In this document: positions 49,602-61,666 of the stretch, one piece after another
Layout: every line of letters starts with the position of its first letter
Position numbering within the stretch: the stretch's first letter is position 1
Assembly (NCBI GenBank): GCA_024103355.1
Contig: JAGFIU010000024.1
Span: forward strand, 62,001-126,000
DNA length: 64,000 nt
DNA from: Bacteroidota bacterium
Lineage (GTDB): Bacteria > Bacteroidota > Bacteroidia > NS11-12g > UBA955
Direction of reading: 5' to 3'
Made by a program: the position numbers and the translations under genes
The notes under the pieces: model-generated
The model's input: only the letters and a program-made list of their open reading frames with translations
Databases searched by the model: none
Told to the model about the DNA's origin: nothing

Positions 49602-50255
49602 ATGAGTACAGAAAGTATTGAACAACCAATAAAACAAAAATCAGAGCCTCTTTTTGGTAAAAAGAATCGAAAACTACTATCAAACCCACTTGATGCGGAC
49701 AATCCCGTTACGGTTCAGATACTAGGGATATGTTCTGCACTTGCCGTTACTGTGCAAATGAAACCGGCATTATTTATGGCAGTCGGAGTAACCATCATAG
49801 TTGGTCTTTCAAGTTTTATCATATCATTAATGCGTAATCTTATTCCAAATAGAGTCAGAATTATTGTGCAATTAATGGTTGCTGCAACTCTTGTTGTTAT
49901 CATTGATCAACTTTTTAAAGCATATGCTTATGATATTTCAAAACAACTTTCAGTTTATATCAGTTTGATCTTAACAAACTGTATATTATTGGGAAGAATT
50001 GAAGCATTTGCTATGGGTAACAAACCATGGCCATCATTATTAGATGGGATTGGGAATGGAGCAGGCTACGGAGCTATTTTAATGATAACTGCTGTTTTCA
50101 GAGAGTTATTAGGCTCCGGTTCTTTATTTGGTTACAAATTATTGGGAAGTAGTTATATTGGAAACGGAGTTATGATTCTTCCTGCAGGTGCCTGTTTTGT
50201 TATTGGACTTGTAGTTTGGATGCAAAGAGCAAGAAATGGTTACAGAGAAGAATAA
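49602..50255 (+). CDS. nqrD: Na+-NQR subunit D
   Basis: A 217-residue six-helix membrane subunit that with NqrE forms the pseudo-symmetric pair holding an intramembrane Fe-S cluster. NPVTVQILGICSALAVT near the N-terminus and TNCILLGRIEAFAMGNKPW (with the conserved Cys in TNC) are characteristic. It starts 4 bases after nqrC. Confidence 0.95.
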   Translation: MSTESIEQPIKQKSEPLFGKKNRKLLSNPLDADNPVTVQILGICSALAVTVQMKPALFMAVGVTIIVGLSSFIISLMRNLIPNRVRIIVQLMVAATLVVIIDQLFKAYAYDISKQLSVYISLILTNCILLGRIEAFAMGNKPWPSLLDGIGNGAGYGAILMITAVFRELLGSGSLFGYKLLGSSYIGNGVMILPAGACFVIGLVVWMQRARNGYREE

Positions 50256-50279
50256 TTTATAATTTAAAAGAAGTTCACA

Positions 50280-50897
50280 ATGCAAAGTATAATATCAATA
50301 TTCGTAAAATCAGTCTTTGTTGACAACATGATTTTTGCATACTTCCTTGGAATGTGCACATTTATTGCAATTTCTAAAGAAGTAAAAGCTGCGTTTTCAC
50401 TTGGAGTAGCCGTAATTGTTGCGCTTACTGTTACAGTACCGTTAAATTGGATTTTTTATCATTATTTTTTGGCAGAAGGTGCTCTAGCTTGGACAGGAAT
50501 AGAAGCACTAGCTACTATTGACCTTAGTTTCTTAGGTTTACTTACTTATATTTCTATCATTGCTGCATTTATTCAACTCTTAGAAATGATTGTAGAAAAA
50601 TATTACCCAAGTCTATACAACACTTTAGGAATATTCCTACCACTGCTTGCTGTAAACTGTGCAATTTTGGCCGGCTCACTATTCATGGTTGGGAGACCCT
50701 ATAATTTGGCAGAAGCAACTGCATACGGAGCAGGTTCAGGTGTGGGTTGGTTTCTTGCAATTACATCTTTGGCTGCTTTGAGAGAAAAAATCAAATACTC
50801 AAATGTCCCGGCTCCTTTGAGAGGTGTAGGTATTACATTCATCTTAATCGGGCTAATGGCTTTCGGATATCTTAGTTTTATAGGTTTTACAATATAA
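50280..50897 (+). CDS. nqrE: Na+-NQR subunit E
   Basis: A 205-residue six-helix membrane subunit, homologous to NqrD and RnfA. The conserved cysteines are in [16 protein letters not shown] and [14 protein letters not shown]. It lies 24 bases after nqrD in the operon and is the partner of NqrD in binding the intramembrane iron centre. Confidence 0.95.
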
Positions 50898-50904
50898 TTA
50901 AACA

Positions 50905-52224
50905 ATGAACACCCTACTCAGTATAAATCCAACACTTTTGATAGTAAGCGTAGTAGTATTCTTAGTTATCTTACTCTTCCTTGTTATCTTAATTTTATTT
51001 GCTGCTAAAAAGATGGTGCAGCAAGGAGATGTAAAAATTACCATTAATGATGAGAAAGTTGTGAGCGTTCCTGCCGGAGGCAGCCTTCTAACTACGCTTT
51101 CAAGTGCCGGTATTTTTCTTCCTTCTGCTTGTGGAGGTAAAGGAACTTGCGCAGAGTGTAAATGTCAAGTTATGGAAGGTGGTGGTTCAATTCTCCCGAC
51201 AGAAACAGGACACATTAAAAGAAAAGCTCAAAAAGAACATTGGAGACTTTCTTGTCAGGTTAAAGTTAAAAATGATCTTAAGATACAAGTTTCCGAAGAA
51301 GTCTTTGGTATCAAGAAGTGGGAGTGTGAGGTTGTTTCTAACTACAACGTTGCATCTTTTATCAAAGAGTTTGTCGTTAAACTTCCTGAAGGTGAAACAT
51401 TAAATTTTAAAGCAGGTGGATATGTACAAGTTGACGTACCTGTTTGTGAAGTAAATTATAAGGATATTGATATTACTTCACATCCTAGAATGGGGAAACC
51501 TGCTAATGAATTCCAATCAGAGTGGGATAAATTCAAACTTTGGGGTTTAAAAATGAAAAATGATGAACCTATTTTCAGAGCTTATTCAATGGCAAATCAT
51601 CCGGCAGAAGGGAATATTGTAATGTTAAACATTCGTATCGCTACTCCTCCATGGGATAGGGCCAAGAACAATTGGATGGATGTAAACCCGGGTATTTGCT
51701 CTTCTTATGTATTTAGTAAAAAGCCCGGTGATAAAGTAACAATCTCAGGCCCTTATGGAGAGTTCTTTATCAAAGATACAAAAGCAGAGATGATATATGT
51801 TGGAGGTGGTGCAGGAATGGCTCCTTTGCGCTCTCACCTATTCCACTTATTCCATACGCTTAAAACTACTGATAGAAAGGTTTCTTTCTGGTACGGGGGA
51901 CGTTCTAAAAGAGAACTATTCTATATAGATGACTTTAAAGCTATCGAAAAAGAATATCCTAATTTTAGATTCTATCTTGTACTCTCAGAACCACTTCCTG
52001 AAGATAATTGGAAAGTGAAAACGGATATAGATGATAGAGAAGGTGACGGTTTTGTCGGCTTTGTTCACCAAGCACTGATTGATAATTATTTAAATAAACA
52101 TAAAGCTCCCGAGGATATAGAATACTATTTCTGCGGACCTCCAATGATGAATGCTGCTGTAGTTAAAATGACAGAAGACTTTGGAGTTCCTGCTGAGAAT
52201 GTAGCATTTGATGATTTCGGTTAA
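50905..52224 (+). CDS. nqrF: Na+-NQR subunit F (NADH-oxidising)
   Basis: A 439-residue subunit that takes electrons from NADH. It has one N-terminal helix (residues 10-33), a [2Fe-2S] ferredoxin domain with ligands in [14 protein letters not shown] and a later Cys in RLSCQVK, an FAD domain with [12 protein letters not shown], and an NADH domain with [14 protein letters not shown] and [14 protein letters not shown]. It is the last gene, followed by a strong terminator. Confidence 0.96.
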
Positions 52225-55221: not shown

Positions 55222-57162
55222 TTATTTTACTTCTTGCAAAGCACCTTCTTTAAAGATAATAAAAGTACCATCTCCTTTCTTTAGTTTGACATTGTCAATG
55301 CGATATTTAACATCAGGGAAAGCCTTTTCTTGCATTTCAACATCAACTGCATTTTCATTGAGTACCAATTGGGTATAAATGAACATTGCAATATCACTGC
55401 GGATTCCTCGAGGTTTGTATTCTTTCTCGTAAAGTAATTGCTTGGTTTCAGAAGAATAGATTCTGAGCATCACATCACTACGCTTCTTCACAACGGGTTT
55501 GAGCGTCCTCATGTGTATAGCTCCTGAATTATTTTGCTCATACTCCTCCGGAGTGGAGATATACTTAAAATTGACAATCAAAGTTTTCTCCTTAGGATTA
55601 AAAAAATGAATAGTCGTACTGCTCAGAGGAATCATCAATGCAAAAAACAAGGTCATTATCAGGACTGAAATGATATGATGTTTCTTTCTGTTATCTTCAA
55701 TCCCCGGTTCATTATAACCATTATTGCTAACTTCTTGTTTGGTAAAATCAGATAATTTTTCTTTTGAGTACTGCGTGAGTGTAAACAATTTAACATTTCC
55801 TGCATCGTATTTTTTGGAAAACAAAGGTGCTCTTTTTCTGTTGAATCTGTTTACAGTCCAAGTTTTTCCTAAACGATAATAGCAGTCTTCACAACTCAAT
55901 AATGCTACTTTTTTGGTGTTATTATCCAACATTTCCTGCACATCTCGCGGATAGACGCTGCCAATACAGGGAACTCTATAGTGTTTTATGTTCAAATCCT
56001 GAGGTATTTCGGGTTCAGGAAAATAGCTACAACTGAATAAGGTTACATCTGATTTTTGGTTCTCAACTTGTACATTTAGTTGCGGAAACAAATCGTGTGA
56101 AATAGCATGCGTATGACAAGAGCCTATACAGATATTACACCCAACACATTTGTCAGGTGAAAGAATTGCTTTTCTTTCTCCACCTTTGTTCATCATATCA
56201 ATTGCCTCGTAGGGGCAATCAAAAGCACATAAATTGCAACCATCACAAGCATCCAAGTCAATACGTACCGGAGGATTGTCTTTGCGTTTAAAAAAAAATG
56301 GAATACATGTTAAGAAAGCACCGGACACAATCAGATAAACCCAATTCATGTTACTGCTAGATACTTTCATAAAATAGTATCCAAAATAATAATACCAATC
56401 AAAAGTGGTTTGAGTTGGCAAGTAAGACATTTGAGCCGGAGGGTCGCTTTTTACAGGAAAAACAAATGAAATGACAGTTAGAGCGATAATCGAATAATAA
56501 GTCAATTGTTGTGGCGGAAAAATCTTTGGCTTCGAAATACGCATTACATGAATCCAAATGATGAAAACTGTCAATAAAGAAAGGGCAATATGTCCAAACA
56601 CCGCAACTTTAAAAAAACCTCCAACCGTATTCAAATCATTCATCAAAAATGCTCCGGCAATTGATGGGTCGAAAATGGGTAATGCCGCAAAAAGTTTCGC
56701 GGTCAAATATCCCGTGAGCTTAGCTTTTTGATCCCAAACCAATATAAATCCTGTAATTCCAATAATAAGCACAACCATAATGGAGACAACTCCGCTTATC
56801 CAAGCAAGTAATCTTTTGAATTTGGATACTATGATTACCTGAATAAAATGTAGTGCCATAAAGATAATCAGCAAATCTGAAGAATAGCGGTGGATAGTTC
56901 GCATATAGCCATTGAATATATTGGAGGACATGGCATCTACAGACTCCCAAGCCATACGAGGATTAATATTATAAAAGATAAAAACATAAATACCGGAAAT
57001 ACAAGCAATTGCAAACATTATCACAGCTATACCTCCAAGATAATAAAGAGGGTTCAATTCTGTTGAATATATTTTTCCTATAATGGTAGCGAATTTTTGA
57101 AATAACTGATGTCCTCGAGTGTGTTTTTTTATTGATTCAGATTCAATGTTTTTTTGATTCAT
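55222..57162 (-). CDS. Cytochrome b-ferredoxin-MvhD fusion protein
   Basis: A 646-residue membrane protein that joins three electron-transfer modules. Residues 35-220 are a cytochrome b N-terminal domain with four heme histidines, H91 and H105, then H191 and H205, each pair 14 apart. Further helices and DWYYYFGYYFM (compare PEWY) follow to about 290. Residues 300-350 are a 2x[4Fe-4S] ferredoxin (C306/309/312/316 and C339/342/345/349). Residues 372-445 resemble MvhD/FlpD of hydrogenase-heterodisulfide reductase complexes (C378, C399, C424, C427). A last helix (about 497-515) leads to a C-terminal soluble domain of about 130 residues I do not recognise. It is the last gene of the oxidase-like operon, 2 bases after sco. 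Confidence 0.85.
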   Translation of the reverse strand: MNQKNIESESIKKHTRGHQLFQKFATIIGKIYSTELNPLYYLGGIAVIMFAIACISGIYVFIFYNINPRMAWESVDAMSSNIFNGYMRTIHRYSSDLLIIFMALHFIQVIIVSKFKRLLAWISGVVSIMVVLIIGITGFILVWDQKAKLTGYLTAKLFAALPIFDPSIAGAFLMNDLNTVGGFFKVAVFGHIALSLLTVFIIWIHVMRISKPKIFPPQQLTYYSIIALTVISFVFPVKSDPPAQMSYLPTQTTFDWYYYFGYYFMKVSSSNMNWVYLIVSGAFLTCIPFFFKRKDNPPVRIDLDACDGCNLCAFDCPYEAIDMMNKGGERKAILSPDKCVGCNICIGSCHTHAISHDLFPQLNVQVENQKSDVTLFSCSYFPEPEIPQDLNIKHYRVPCIGSVYPRDVQEMLDNNTKKVALLSCEDCYYRLGKTWTVNRFNRKRAPLFSKKYDAGNVKLFTLTQYSKEKLSDFTKQEVSNNGYNEPGIEDNRKKHHIISVLIMTLFFALMIPLSSTTIHFFNPKEKTLIVNFKYISTPEEYEQNNSGAIHMRTLKPVVKKRSDVMLRIYSSETKQLLYEKEYKPRGIRSDIAMFIYTQLVLNENAVDVEMQEKAFPDVKYRIDNVKLKKGDGTFIIFKEGALQEVK

Positions 57163-57164
57163 GT

Positions 57165-57896
57165 TTAGTCTATAATAAAGGATTTGATAAAAAGTCTTGA
57201 AACAAGTAGAATAATAAGGAGGCCGGCAGAGGTTGAAATAATAAATCTCCAATCCACCTTGTAAGTTTTATTAAGCGGGTCATATTTGAGGCATCTCAGA
57301 TAAAAACCTGTAAACAATCCGGGTCGGGTAATTTTTGCCTGTGCTTCCATCACAGATATTTTTAAATCTTTCTTTGAAGGTGTAACACCATAAATGTATC
57401 TTGAAACAGTTCCTTCGGGTGTCAGAACTACCAATAGAGGAGGATGGTCATATTCTTTTGTTGAGGGGATATAATCGTATTCAACACCAATAGAAGACAT
57501 AAACTTGCGAATATTTTGCGGGGTAGCAGATAACGCCATCCATTTCTTCCCGTCAATAATCCAACGACTTTCATAAACGGCCAGACTTCTGGGGTTTTCG
57601 GTGCTATCAAATGAAAAACTCACCACTGTGTAGTCATCTCCCAAACCATCCATATCTTTAATGACATTCTGAACTCCACTGCTCACAATGCCACAGATTG
57701 AATAACAACGAGTATAAACGGGAGATATAATGATAGGCTTCCCATTAAAAATTGAGGAGAATTGTAAAACCTCTCCTTTAGAATTAAACATGGGAATATC
57801 TGCTACTTTCTGAGCGAGATGTTTTTTTTCATTTGGGAAGTTAAAACTGCTCCACAAAAACCAAAACGGTACCAACCACAAAAAATATTTCCTCAT
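57165..57896 (-). CDS. SCO1/SenC-family copper chaperone
   Basis: A 243-residue exported, membrane-anchored thioredoxin-fold protein that delivers copper, typically to CuA. The copper-binding CxxxC is in YTRCYSICG near residue 60, and the third ligand His in YDHPPLLVVL. An N-terminal signal and a C-terminal helix (about 220-240) are present, which is longer than the usual family. It lies between coxI-like and cytochrome b genes, fitting a role in assembling this CuA enzyme. Confidence 0.9.
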   Translation of the reverse strand: MRKYFLWLVPFWFLWSSFNFPNEKKHLAQKVADIPMFNSKGEVLQFSSIFNGKPIIISPVYTRCYSICGIVSSGVQNVIKDMDGLGDDYTVVSFSFDSTENPRSLAVYESRWIIDGKKWMALSATPQNIRKFMSSIGVEYDYIPSTKEYDHPPLLVVLTPEGTVSRYIYGVTPSKKDLKISVMEAQAKITRPGLFTGFYLRCLKYDPLNKTYKVDWRFIISTSAGLLIILLVSRLFIKSFIID

Positions 57897-57951: not shown

Positions 57952-59619
57952 TTAATTAACGTTCCATGTTGCTGCAAGCCATTTCCAGTTGAGGAAGAAA
58001 AGAGCAAGGAAGACAAGAAGGAACAAGAATGTAAGTACAAGAGTACCCGGGGCTTCAAAACCTTTATGAGGTTTGCCTTCGGGAGGTAGAGGAGAAATTG
58101 TCAATTGCATATCTTGAGGGCCGTTAACCTTTGGTCCCCAAAATACAGAGAAAACAACAATCAATATCCAGATTAACGTTGCAGTGAATGCAATAACACC
58201 ACCCAACATTGTAATTACCCAGAAGAAATCAACAGCAGGGTTAAAATTATGTGAGAAAGGACCGCCTGAGAATGTGTTATCCCAATGTCTTCTTGGAACA
58301 CCAAGCTGACCTAATACAATCATACCAATAGAAAGCATTGCAATTCCTATAAAAAATAACCAAGGTTGCCATTGAGCCAATTTGAATCCTACAATCTTTC
58401 TTCTGAAAATCAATGGGATTAAATAATATGTAATACCCATGAAAGTAAGTGTGGTACCAATCACAACTGTGCCTTTGAAGTGTCCGGGAATTGCAATTGT
58501 GTTGTGAACAATGATATTGGTTTGTTCCATACCAAAAATAACACCGGTAGTTCCACCAATAAATCCAAAACCGATGATAGCTAGAATAATAGCAGAGAAA
58601 GCAGGATTCCCCCAAGGCGCCTTAGCTAACCATTGGAATAAACCTTTATTAAATCCCCATTTACGCTGCGCCACCTCAAAAGAAGAAGGAACTGCAAATG
58701 CGTGTATCATGGACGCAAGAACTGCGAGATACATAGCATAACTGGTGTTCCAAACTTTCCATGCACTACTCACTCCTGGGTCTGTCAACAAATGGTGCGC
58801 AGAAGCAAGGCAGATGAAAAGAATGTATAGTACAAATGCAGAACGAGATACCTTCTCATTAATTGAGGTACCGCCCACTGTCAAAAATGAAGTCATGTAC
58901 CATATAGAAACCATAGCTGCCACGTTAATTTGTTGAGAGGAGTGTCCCAATCCCCACCAAATCAGTTTATACATTGCCGGGTCAACATTATCGATTAATC
59001 CCAAAGACCAAAGGAATGTAGGAATATAAATTAATGCACCTGAGGCAAGGGTAATCACTGCAATAATGGCTGCGGTCATCAAACCATAAGCCACAAGAGG
59101 CATTGTTTCGCCATAGGTTTTTTCACGTCTGGCAATCATTAAGTTTCCGAAAAATAAAATCACTGCAATAAGAGCACCTACGGCAAACAGTATAATTCCA
59201 AGATAGTAAAGAGGATGCGCTTTCAAAGGAGTATAAGAAGTCAGCATGACATCCGCTTTTCCCATCAAAATGATAATATTTGAAATTACAAGACCCGCAA
59301 CCATCAATCCAAATGCCCACCAACCGGTTTTGGGTGAACAAAATCTTGTGTTCAGTATGACGGTTGAACCAAAATACAACCCTGCAACCTCAAAGAAAAT
59401 TATCCAAAATATAAGTGCATTCAATCCGTGAAAAGTTACCAAACGATAGTACCATTCTGCACCTAACAAATGCATAGGCTGATACCTTGTAAACACTAAT
59501 AATAGAGCGGCAACTACTGCCATTAATAATGAAATAACGGCAAACACCGCATTATATCGAATGAGTTTTTCTGACCTTAAGTCAACTTTAAACCCAGTTA
59601 TATCACATGTTCTAAACAT
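57952..59619 (-). CDS. B-family heme-copper oxidase subunit I with altered active site
   Basis: A 555-residue membrane protein with 12-14 helices, resembling Thermus ba3-type (B-family) subunit I. Conserved: low-spin heme His64 (VTFHGLNAL), CuB ligands His226 (WWGLGHSSQQ) and His275-His276 (SAHHLLTDPG), high-spin heme His380 (IPGHFKGTV). Changed: the position of the cross-linked Tyr (four residues after His226) is Gln230, and the position of the second low-spin heme His (two after His380) is Lys382. Typical O2 reductases have Tyr and His there. It is therefore a candidate NO reductase-like member of the superfamily. Flanked by CuA subunit II and sco. Confidence 0.85.
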   Translation of the reverse strand: MFRTCDITGFKVDLRSEKLIRYNAVFAVISLLMAVVAALLLVFTRYQPMHLLGAEWYYRLVTFHGLNALIFWIIFFEVAGLYFGSTVILNTRFCSPKTGWWAFGLMVAGLVISNIIILMGKADVMLTSYTPLKAHPLYYLGIILFAVGALIAVILFFGNLMIARREKTYGETMPLVAYGLMTAAIIAVITLASGALIYIPTFLWSLGLIDNVDPAMYKLIWWGLGHSSQQINVAAMVSIWYMTSFLTVGGTSINEKVSRSAFVLYILFICLASAHHLLTDPGVSSAWKVWNTSYAMYLAVLASMIHAFAVPSSFEVAQRKWGFNKGLFQWLAKAPWGNPAFSAIILAIIGFGFIGGTTGVIFGMEQTNIIVHNTIAIPGHFKGTVVIGTTLTFMGITYYLIPLIFRRKIVGFKLAQWQPWLFFIGIAMLSIGMIVLGQLGVPRRHWDNTFSGGPFSHNFNPAVDFFWVITMLGGVIAFTATLIWILIVVFSVFWGPKVNGPQDMQLTISPLPPEGKPHKGFEAPGTLVLTFLFLLVFLALFFLNWKWLAATWNVN

Positions 59620-59637: not shown

Positions 59638-60561
59638 TTAGTTTTTTAATGATTTTATAAAGGCAGTAATTTGAGCAATCTCTTTGTCTGACATTGGAGT
59701 AGGAGGCATCATTGTTGATTCAAATCCAATTGTAATTTTCTTCTGTGGTTCTAAAATAGACTCTTTAATATAAGCATCATCAACGGTTACGGTTGATTTT
59801 TTACCACCTTCTTTTATATCTTCGGTTTTACCATAAAGCCCTTTCCATGAAGGTGCAAGCAAAACAGAGCCATCGGTGCTGTGGCAACCAATACAACCTT
59901 TGAGGGCATACAGCTGTTCACCCAATGTAACCATTTGTTCCTCTGACAAAGGTTTGTCGTCACTCTCTTCAATAATGGGGTCAGGTTTTGTCTTCATATT
60001 CTCATATCCATACAATTTAAGGTCTTCGTCTTTTTCAATCACGATTATCTTGCCAATCATTGTATGGTGACCAATACCACAGAACTCATTACAAACTATC
60101 TTGAACTCTCCGGTCTCAGTAGGTGTAAATTTTAGCACATAGTCATACCCGGGATAAATCTGAAAATTCATATTTACGGGTTGAAGTGAAAAGCCATGTA
60201 CTAAATCTTTGGAAGAGATATGAAAATTGTATGATTGGTCTTTTATCAATATCATAGCAGGACTAAATCTCCACATTTCTGCCAATAAAAAGACATCAGA
60301 ATTTGGCTCAGGACGAACAACAGGAACTCCGTTATCCATTCCAACCAAATTTCGTTTGATATACGCTTCGCTAAGTTTTGCAAATTCTGTGGTAGTTGTG
60401 CGATAAGTGATGCTTGAGGGATTTTGTTTACCGTAAACGTGCCATAAAATCATCCAAACAAACATTGCCAGACATAAAATCAAGGCAATCACCATCCACA
60501 TTTTTTCGTCTTTGGACACCTTCGTGTCGTACCAACCTTCTTTAGGACTTAATAAACTCAT
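59638..60561 (-). CDS. Subunit II with CuA site and fused cytochrome c
   Basis: A 307-residue protein. One N-terminal helix (residues 21-42) anchors a cupredoxin domain whose CuA ligands are all present: His122 (VHGFS), Cys157 and Cys161 with Glu159 (CNEFC), His165 and Met168 (CGIGHHTM). A cytochrome c domain follows, with heme motif CIGCH at 223-227 and a likely axial Met in STMMPP. It therefore takes electrons from a soluble or membrane cytochrome c. It is 18 bases upstream of subunit I. Confidence 0.93.
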   Translation of the reverse strand: MSLLSPKEGWYDTKVSKDEKMWMVIALILCLAMFVWMILWHVYGKQNPSSITYRTTTTEFAKLSEAYIKRNLVGMDNGVPVVRPEPNSDVFLLAEMWRFSPAMILIKDQSYNFHISSKDLVHGFSLQPVNMNFQIYPGYDYVLKFTPTETGEFKIVCNEFCGIGHHTMIGKIIVIEKDEDLKLYGYENMKTKPDPIIEESDDKPLSEEQMVTLGEQLYALKGCIGCHSTDGSVLLAPSWKGLYGKTEDIKEGGKKSTVTVDDAYIKESILEPQKKITIGFESTMMPPTPMSDKEIAQITAFIKSLKN

Positions 60562-60925: not shown

Positions 60926-61666
60926 TTACATTGAAGTGCTCAAAGGTTCGCTGAAGTTAGGGTTTGAAAGTGCTAACAATCCTTTGATATTGAGAAAATG
61001 GAATTTTTTGGCAGTGCATTTTATCAAGCCTTCTTTTTCAAAGTCTTTGAGAATTTTGGAAACTTGTTCTTTTGTGGTTCCAATCAAATCAGCTATGTCT
61101 TGTCTTTGAAAATTTATTTTAAAACTTTGGCTACCCCCTTCATATTGATACACTTCTGCAAGCATCAACAATGCTTCTGCAAGGTTTTCTCTTACAGTTT
61201 TGATAGCCAGATTTACCGCTTTTGTTTCTGCAAAATTCAATTCTTCTATTGATTGGTTAATTATCTCTTGTTTGAGATTTGAAGATTTTGCAACAATGTT
61301 TTTGAAAACGATATTGGGTACATAACAATATTCTACATCAGAACCGGCTACTGCAGAAAATGTATGAATTTTATGTTTTTCATTTATATTGATTCTACTT
61401 CCTAAAATTGCACCTTTACTAACTATTCTTAGAATTAAGGGTCTTCCGTTTCTCCCCATAGATTCAATTTTAATAAACCCATTTTTTATGAAGTAAACTC
61501 CTTTAATCTCATCGCCTTTGGAAAAGAGTGCCTCTCCATTTTTCAATGCCCCACGAATCTTAAATGTGCTTAGGGCTTGAAGAGTTTCGTAATTACAATC
61601 TTTCAGAATTGAGCAATCTCGGGTTTTGCAATGAATACAATCGTAGCGTGATTTGTCCAAATTCAT
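60926..61666 (-). CDS. FNR-type Crp-family regulator with Fe-S cysteines
   Basis: A 246-residue transcription factor. The N-terminus has C10, C13, C18 and C24 (CIHCKTRDCSILKDC), close to E. coli FNR (AIHCQDCSISQLC), and C114 in VEYCYVPN aligns with FNR Cys122. A [4Fe-4S] sensor of oxygen or NO is therefore likely. A cyclic-nucleotide-type fold (about 30-150) is followed by an HTH domain with the recognition helix TTKEQVSKILK: Glu200 and Ser203 match the FNR contacts, while Lys204 replaces the usual Arg. It is transcribed toward the oxidase-like operon, which it is likely to regulate. Confidence 0.88.
   Translation of the reverse strand: MNLDKSRYDCIHCKTRDCSILKDCNYETLQALSTFKIRGALKNGEALFSKGDEIKGVYFIKNGFIKIESMGRNGRPLILRIVSKGAILGSRININEKHKIHTFSAVAGSDVEYCYVPNIVFKNIVAKSSNLKQEIINQSIEELNFAETKAVNLAIKTVRENLAEALLMLAEVYQYEGGSQSFKINFQRQDIADLIGTTKEQVSKILKDFEKEGLIKCTAKKFHFLNIKGLLALSNPNFSEPLSTSM

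Follow-up and report, generated by a model that had tools for sequence, protein, structure and literature searches.

A probable eNOR-type nitric oxide reductase of a Bacteroidota bacterium with lysine in place of a low-spin heme histidine

Gene organization and active-site residues

The window, that is, the whole 64,000-nucleotide stretch of DNA analyzed here, contains a gene for subunit I of a heme-copper enzyme. The genes for subunit II and an FNR-type regulator lie upstream of it, and those for a SCO1-like protein and a cytochrome b fusion lie downstream.

55222-57252, minus strand: diheme cytochrome b fused to two 4Fe-4S clusters and an MvhD/FlpD-like Cys domain (PF00033, PF00037, PF02662)
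57165-57896, minus strand: SCO1/SenC-like protein (PF02630; CxxxC seen by eye)
57952-59619, minus strand: probable eNOR-type heme-copper subunit I, 555 amino acids (COX1, PF00115, 217 bits; Gln-type side of the tree; AlphaFold2 model)
58474-58476, minus strand: codon AAA of Lys382, replacing the second low-spin heme His (ba3 His386), by codon reading and alignment
58930-58932, minus strand: codon CAA of Gln230, replacing the cross-linked Tyr, by codon reading and alignment
59638-60561, minus strand: subunit II with a CuA cupredoxin domain (His122, Cys157, Glu159, Cys161, His165, and Met168), Glu19 near the N terminus, and a C-terminal cytochrome c domain (PF00116, PF00034)
60926-61666, minus strand: FNR-type regulator with Cys10, Cys13, Cys18, Cys24, and Cys114 (CRP/FNR domains)

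The start codon of the fusion gene is uncertain, and its open reading frame overlaps the SCO gene. Elsewhere in the window, at 49602-52224, the apparent end of an Na+-NQR operon (NqrD, E, and F) was seen by eye.

The best solved-structure matches of subunit I were ba3-type oxygen reductases (E about 2e-47). Besides, an AlphaFold2 model made with a 59-row alignment (pLDDT 87.9, pTM 0.90) had the ba3 oxidase 3s8f as its best solved match in Foldseek (E 1.2e-19, TM 0.77). We read the codons of the key residues singly and aligned the protein with the ba3 oxidase of Thermus thermophilus (1ehk), whose residues we take to have the functional roles named here. His64 (CAC), His226 (CAC), His275 (CAC), His276 (CAT), His372 (CAC), and His380 (CAC) align with His72, His233, His282, His283, His376, and His384 of ba3, respectively. 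The alignment is gap-free over the HNT-to-HFx stretch and around HxxxY, and thus His380, Lys382, and Gln230 can be equated with His384, His386, and Tyr237. These readings bear out the preliminary description, which had placed the CuB ligands at His226, His275, and His276 and the high-spin heme ligand at His380, with Gln at the site of the cross-linked Tyr and Lys at the site of the second low-spin heme His.

A filter of six conserved histidines, covering the CuB/Fe site and both hemes, has been used for the heme-copper superfamily (excerpt of PMC3084760). Subunit I of the window fails this rule with five of the six, Lys382 replacing the second low-spin heme His. Its membership in the superfamily holds nonetheless by sequence family, tree, and fold.

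Family assignment

Relatives were collected from plasmid proteins and from genome contigs. The plasmid search gave proteins 47 to 51% identical in Defluviimonas, Thermomicrobium, and Thermus, and the remaining 55 of 67 records, among the matches listed, were at most 35% identical. One Geobacillus plasmid locus (L014), with no annotated subunit I under the match, was omitted from later alignments. The genome-contig scan supplied 80 loci with 50 to 96% identity, the best 80 of 345 confirmed relatives, and the closest among these 80 (96%) belongs to a Bacteroidia bacterium. The eNOR records found by the search carry the label cytochrome c oxidase. A search of 395 genomes of the phylum gave a match above 570 bits in 16, the window's own genome included, and the 14 weaker matches examined were all Tyr types.

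The alignment of 119 rows (the window included, the genome-contig loci being the best 80 of 345) contained 101 sequences with Gln at the Tyr site and 18 with Tyr. Gln230 was present in 101 of 101 Gln-type rows, and Tyr in 18 of 18 outgroup rows. After the rows had been thinned by identity from 119 to 79 and the Lys and Gln columns removed, a first tree split 72 Gln rows from 7 Tyr rows at 100/100.

According to Table A4 of PMC8756737, Gln at this site is diagnostic of eNOR, whereas the residue is Asn in sNOR and in CuANOR (bNOR), Asp in gNOR, and Glu in cNOR and qNOR. An excerpt of PMC11388526, citing Murali et al. 2024, describes eNOR as a biochemically characterized NO reductase related to the B family. 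The window agrees with eNOR in its Gln230, in its grouping with Gln types apart from Tyr-type B-family oxidases, and in the cupredoxin subunit II (PF00116, full CuA motif) encoded immediately upstream at 59638-60561. The rows in this comparison, which include the plasmid copies of T. thermophilus and Thermomicrobium, are assigned to eNOR by their Gln.

Other heme-copper types were considered and rejected. Membership in sNOR, CuANOR (bNOR), or gNOR is ruled out by Gln230 in place of Asn, Asn, or Asp, and membership in cNOR or qNOR by Gln230 together with the CuA subunit II. An oxygen reductase of the A or B family would carry the cross-linked Tyr in helix VI, where the window has Gln230. A displaced Tyr of the cbb3 type was also rejected, since residue 269, at the presumed position of the cbb3 Tyr, is Ile in 75 and Leu in 26 of the 101 Gln-type rows. 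Only the Gln types have Tyr265 and Tyr294 as invariant residues, so that a radical Tyr elsewhere in these proteins is conceivable.

Distribution and origin of the lysine variant

Position 382 was His in 67 and Lys in 34 of the 101 Gln rows, shares that come from a similarity-ranked sample (the best 80 of 345 genome-contig relatives). The Lys codons were AAA in 22 and AAG in 12, and the His codons CAC in 50 and CAT in 17. It had been argued from the sequence alone that a base-call error was improbable, a change from Lys to His taking two base changes; we can now dismiss such an error, since Lys382 occurs in 34 of 101 rows from many separate assemblies and with both codons, which argues against chance as well.

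The Lys rows come from Bacteroidota, Aquificota, "Bacterium HR19," and T. thermophilus, the last alone representing Thermus, with two sequences (L011 and L012). When 101 Aquificota genomes were searched, eNOR was found in 12 (E of 1e-120 or better), with Lys in all 12; these include the genomes of L042, L043, and L085.

In the first tree, the 15 non-Thermus Lys rows formed a single clade (100/100), and Thermus lay apart from it, beside His-type sequences (87/35). An AU test on this tree did not reject a single Lys clade (p 0.316). For a second tree, of 55 rows, two Aquificota rows were added, and the His-type rows beside Thermus, Thermomicrobium, four rows of the outgroup, and 17 further rows were omitted. 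Thermus was again drawn apart, and a single Lys clade appeared in 2% of bootstraps; on this second data set, a tree with a single Lys clade was 10.4 log units better (p 0.723). One origin of the lysine and two origins are both possible.

His64, the other low-spin heme ligand, was kept in 101 of 101 Gln-type rows, and the alignment held no replacement His, Met, or Cys common to all 34 Lys rows. Of the 32 non-Thermus Lys rows, 31 share a new residue, Met364, and Gly250, Thr251, Trp420, Leu429, and Leu436 are sites that track Lys in both lineages. The conservation pattern of the lysine, together with the kept His64, fits lysine as the sixth ligand without proving it.

Subunit II and neighboring genes

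His122, Cys157, Cys161, His165, Met168, and Glu19 were present in 98 of 98 aligned subunits II, and Glu159 in 96 of 98. A cytochrome c domain was fused to subunit II in 25 of 33 Lys loci, all 25 from Bacteroidota, versus 0 of 66 His loci. A general link between Lys and this fusion was rejected, since the fusion is absent from the Lys loci L011, L012, L036, L041-L044, and L085.

A SCO match follows subunit I in the Lys loci of the other Bacteroidota and of HR19 and in most of those of Aquificota. Many other eNOR loci, including some in distant phyla, have homologues of the cytochrome b fusion, in some cases encoded on the opposite strand. Among 74 aligned homologues over 450 amino acids, His121, His135, His221, and His235 were kept in 73 to 74 and the eight cluster Cys in 70 to 74, and the fusion is possibly an electron-input partner of the enzyme. 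For the FNR-type regulator, Cys10, Cys13, Cys18, Cys24, and Cys114 were kept in 16 to 19 of 20 aligned sequences. Of the 26 other Lys loci of Bacteroidota, 19 have a homologue more than 40% identical, and the HR19, Aquificota, and Thermus loci have none. A hemerythrin-like gene was also seen in 15 of the searched eNOR loci, from Proteobacteria (L009, L065, L073-L075, L078, L079, L081-L084, L089, L091, L092, and L094).

Sources of NO and other heme-copper genes

The window's genome has a NirK that scored 335 bits, over the curated cutoff, with a frame open over 382 amino acids; in a control, 1 of 14 well-known genomes was over the cutoff. The cytochrome d1 (NirS) model had no match in the window's genome, and the three NosZ matches were all far below the cutoff. 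With NirK present, d1 absent, and no NosZ over the cutoff, this genome would produce N2O from nitrite. A search of relatives covering 57 genomes, the window's own included, found eNOR in two genomes, which were also the two with NirK; this co-occurrence counts as one event because both genomes belong to one genus.

The scans for NirK and NirS covered the genomes of every Lys-type genome-contig locus except L029 (28 of 29), these loci being drawn from the best 80 of 345. NirK was over the cutoff in 16 of 23 Lys-type Bacteroidota genomes, not over it in the other 7, and over it in 0 of the 5 other Lys-type genomes; NirS was found in all 5 of these Aquificota and HR19 genomes and in 0 of the 23 Bacteroidota. 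Thus, 21 of 28 Lys-type genomes had NirK or NirS. The same scan gave NirK over the cutoff in 7 of 20 His-type eNOR genomes, so that a tie between NirK and Lys in particular was rejected, the link being with eNOR.

In L042, L043, and the Thermus locus L011, no more than a few kilobases separate NirS from the Lys-type eNOR. No NirS was found in the HR19 locus or in the 25 kb that surround the other Thermus copy (L012), and loci L044 and L085 end too soon to show it. In L045, L077, and L095, the distance between NirK and the His-type eNOR is about 6 kb or less, and NirK or a piece of it was found in loci L045, L052, L077, L095, L106, and L112. An eNOR-NirK operon is recorded for Ardenticatena (excerpt of PMC4653789).

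The window's genome also has an A-family-like oxidase and a cbb3 oxidase. Besides, a second NO-reductase-like subunit I (L004; contig C29, 1384-2862, minus strand) carries Asn in place of the Tyr (by eye, in GHTIAN) and adjoins its own CuA-type subunit II and a SCO-like protein; its nearest plasmid match (35%) is from Ruegeria pomeroyi DSS-3. The Asn would fit sNOR or CuANOR (Table A4 of PMC8756737), which makes L004 a candidate NO reductase, and NirK may therefore serve either enzyme. On contig C31 (1471-2778, plus strand), a 436-amino-acid ccoN-like protein (L005) scored 44.8 bits, far below the cutoff, and by eye its first CuB His motif is seemingly missing.

Discussion

According to papers that cite them, the eNOR family is that of Hemp and Gennis 2008 and Murali et al. 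2024. The gene of the window very probably encodes an NO reductase. For the whole reading, an eNOR-type NO reductase fed by cytochrome c whose low-spin heme is probably bound by His64 and Lys382, we set the probability at about 0.8. The earlier suggestion of an NO reductase of a newer family is strengthened by the Gln mark, the tree split, and the frequent NO-forming nitrite reductases. The contrary outcome that it had named, a place inside the O2 reductases with a displaced Tyr, was looked for and not seen in the tree split or at residue 269 (Ile or Leu). In our judgment, the NO chemistry is that of an ordinary eNOR, but the enzyme belongs to a branch with a conserved lysine, which does not satisfy the six-histidine rule.

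Like the eNOR family, the enzyme has Gln at the Tyr site, a cupredoxin subunit II encoded immediately upstream, and a relationship to the B family, and NirK or NirS is found near several members (the loci described here; excerpt of PMC4653789). It differs from the family in belonging to a branch with Lys at one low-spin heme His site and in the fusion of subunit II with cytochrome c, which among the loci compared was seen in Lys loci alone. With T. thermophilus ba3 (1ehk, 3s8f), it shares the fold, five of the six metal-binding His, the CuA subunit II, and a Glu near the N terminus of subunit II, presumably equivalent to Glu15; it differs in Gln for the cross-linked Tyr, Lys for His386, His306 for Thr312, and Val237 for Tyr244. 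An axial His/Lys pair would be shared with heme 2 of Allochromatium vinosum TsdA, although the known His/Lys hemes listed in an excerpt of PMC6879331 are those of thiosulfate dehydrogenase and hemoglobins, none of them a heme-copper enzyme.

The electron and proton routes that we infer, with NO as the substrate and lysine as an iron ligand, would run as follows. The cytochrome c domain of subunit II would receive electrons from a soluble cytochrome c or a comparable donor and pass them to CuA. From there they would reach the low-spin heme of subunit I, with His64 and most probably Lys382 as its ligands, and then the site of the high-spin heme (His380) and CuB (His226, His275, and His276), where 2 NO + 2 e- + 2 H+ would give N2O + H2O. 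NO can come from NirK in the same cell. Gln230 takes the place of the Tyr from which O2 reductases draw a fourth electron; the reduction of NO has no need of one. For eNOR, a single proton channel is predicted, and in the window's enzyme, protons would probably enter from the cytoplasm by a modified form of the B-family channel with Glu19 of subunit II, Tyr241, Ser303, and His306, Glu19 being presumably equivalent by eye to the channel-entry Glu15 of ba3 subunit II. Tyr241 and Ser303 are present in 101 of 101 Gln-type rows, as is His306, at whose position (ba3 Thr312) 18 of 18 Tyr-type rows have Thr; the position of ba3 Tyr244 is Val or Ile in Gln-type rows. One paper calls eNorB quinol dependent (excerpt of PMC13274419), a report that does not agree with a CuA subunit and counts against the CuA route.

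NO reduction by the window's enzyme has good support, and reduction of O2 by a B-family enzyme that lost its Tyr, perhaps through a radical on another Tyr, is very improbable. Its nearest matches among solved structures are ba3 oxygen reductases, and the invariant Tyr265 and Tyr294 could offer such a radical site; in the tree, however, the Gln types and the Tyr types stand apart, the genome already has its A-family-like and cbb3 oxidases, eNOR keeps company with NirK and NirS, and it is cited as a characterized NO reductase (PMC11388526, in an excerpt citing Murali 2024). A role mainly in protection from the NO of neighbors in anoxic communities, rather than in respiration, also seems improbable, if less so. 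The 7 of 23 Lys-type Bacteroidota genomes with NirK not over the cutoff and the 0 of 23 with NirS, most being metagenome-assembled genomes whose completeness is not given, would suit protection, but NirK is present in the window's own genome and in the other 16, and CuA and Glu19 are conserved.

The hypothesis that Lys382 is a low-spin heme ligand with His64 as its partner, a possibility already raised from the sequence alone, seems somewhat more likely than not. In the rival reading, which is less likely yet deserves weight, the enzyme is an eNOR with a low-spin heme that is five-coordinate or has water or another residue as its ligand, and Lys382 serves another purpose, such as holding a propionate or a proton: the evidence for ligation is one of position only, Met364 was gained in most Lys rows, and natural His/Lys hemes are few and rarely reported, their Lys often being labile (excerpt of PMC6879331). 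What speaks against a nonligand Lys382 is that Lys persists in several phyla and is encoded by either of its codons, that His64 is kept in all 101 Gln-type rows, and that the Lys rows have no substitute ligand in common. We tentatively propose, at slightly under even odds, a deep eNOR branch of Bacteroidota, Aquificota, and Thermus with a His-Lys low-spin heme, breaking the six-histidine rule. The amine ligand would shift the potential of this heme or detach reversibly, thereby gating the flow of electrons into the NO site.

We found no description of the Lys variant in the literature considered, the main eNOR study (Murali et al. 2024, PNAS) being outside its scope. The excerpts of PMC8756737, PMC4653789, PMC11388526, PMC9270275, PMC12569097, PMC13274419, PMC12548093, PMC3084760, PMC8780969, and PMC6879331 make no mention of it.

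The eNORs are producers of N2O, a greenhouse gas, in many phyla. A six-histidine filter, used in at least one classifier (excerpt of PMC3084760), would miss real members, and if the present reading is true, surveys filtering on six histidines would have discarded the enzymes of the Lys branch. If this branch ligates heme with lysine, a ligand set deemed fixed across respiratory heme-copper enzymes would be changeable, and natural His and Lys versions of one enzyme would permit redox potential, electron input, and N2O output to be compared.
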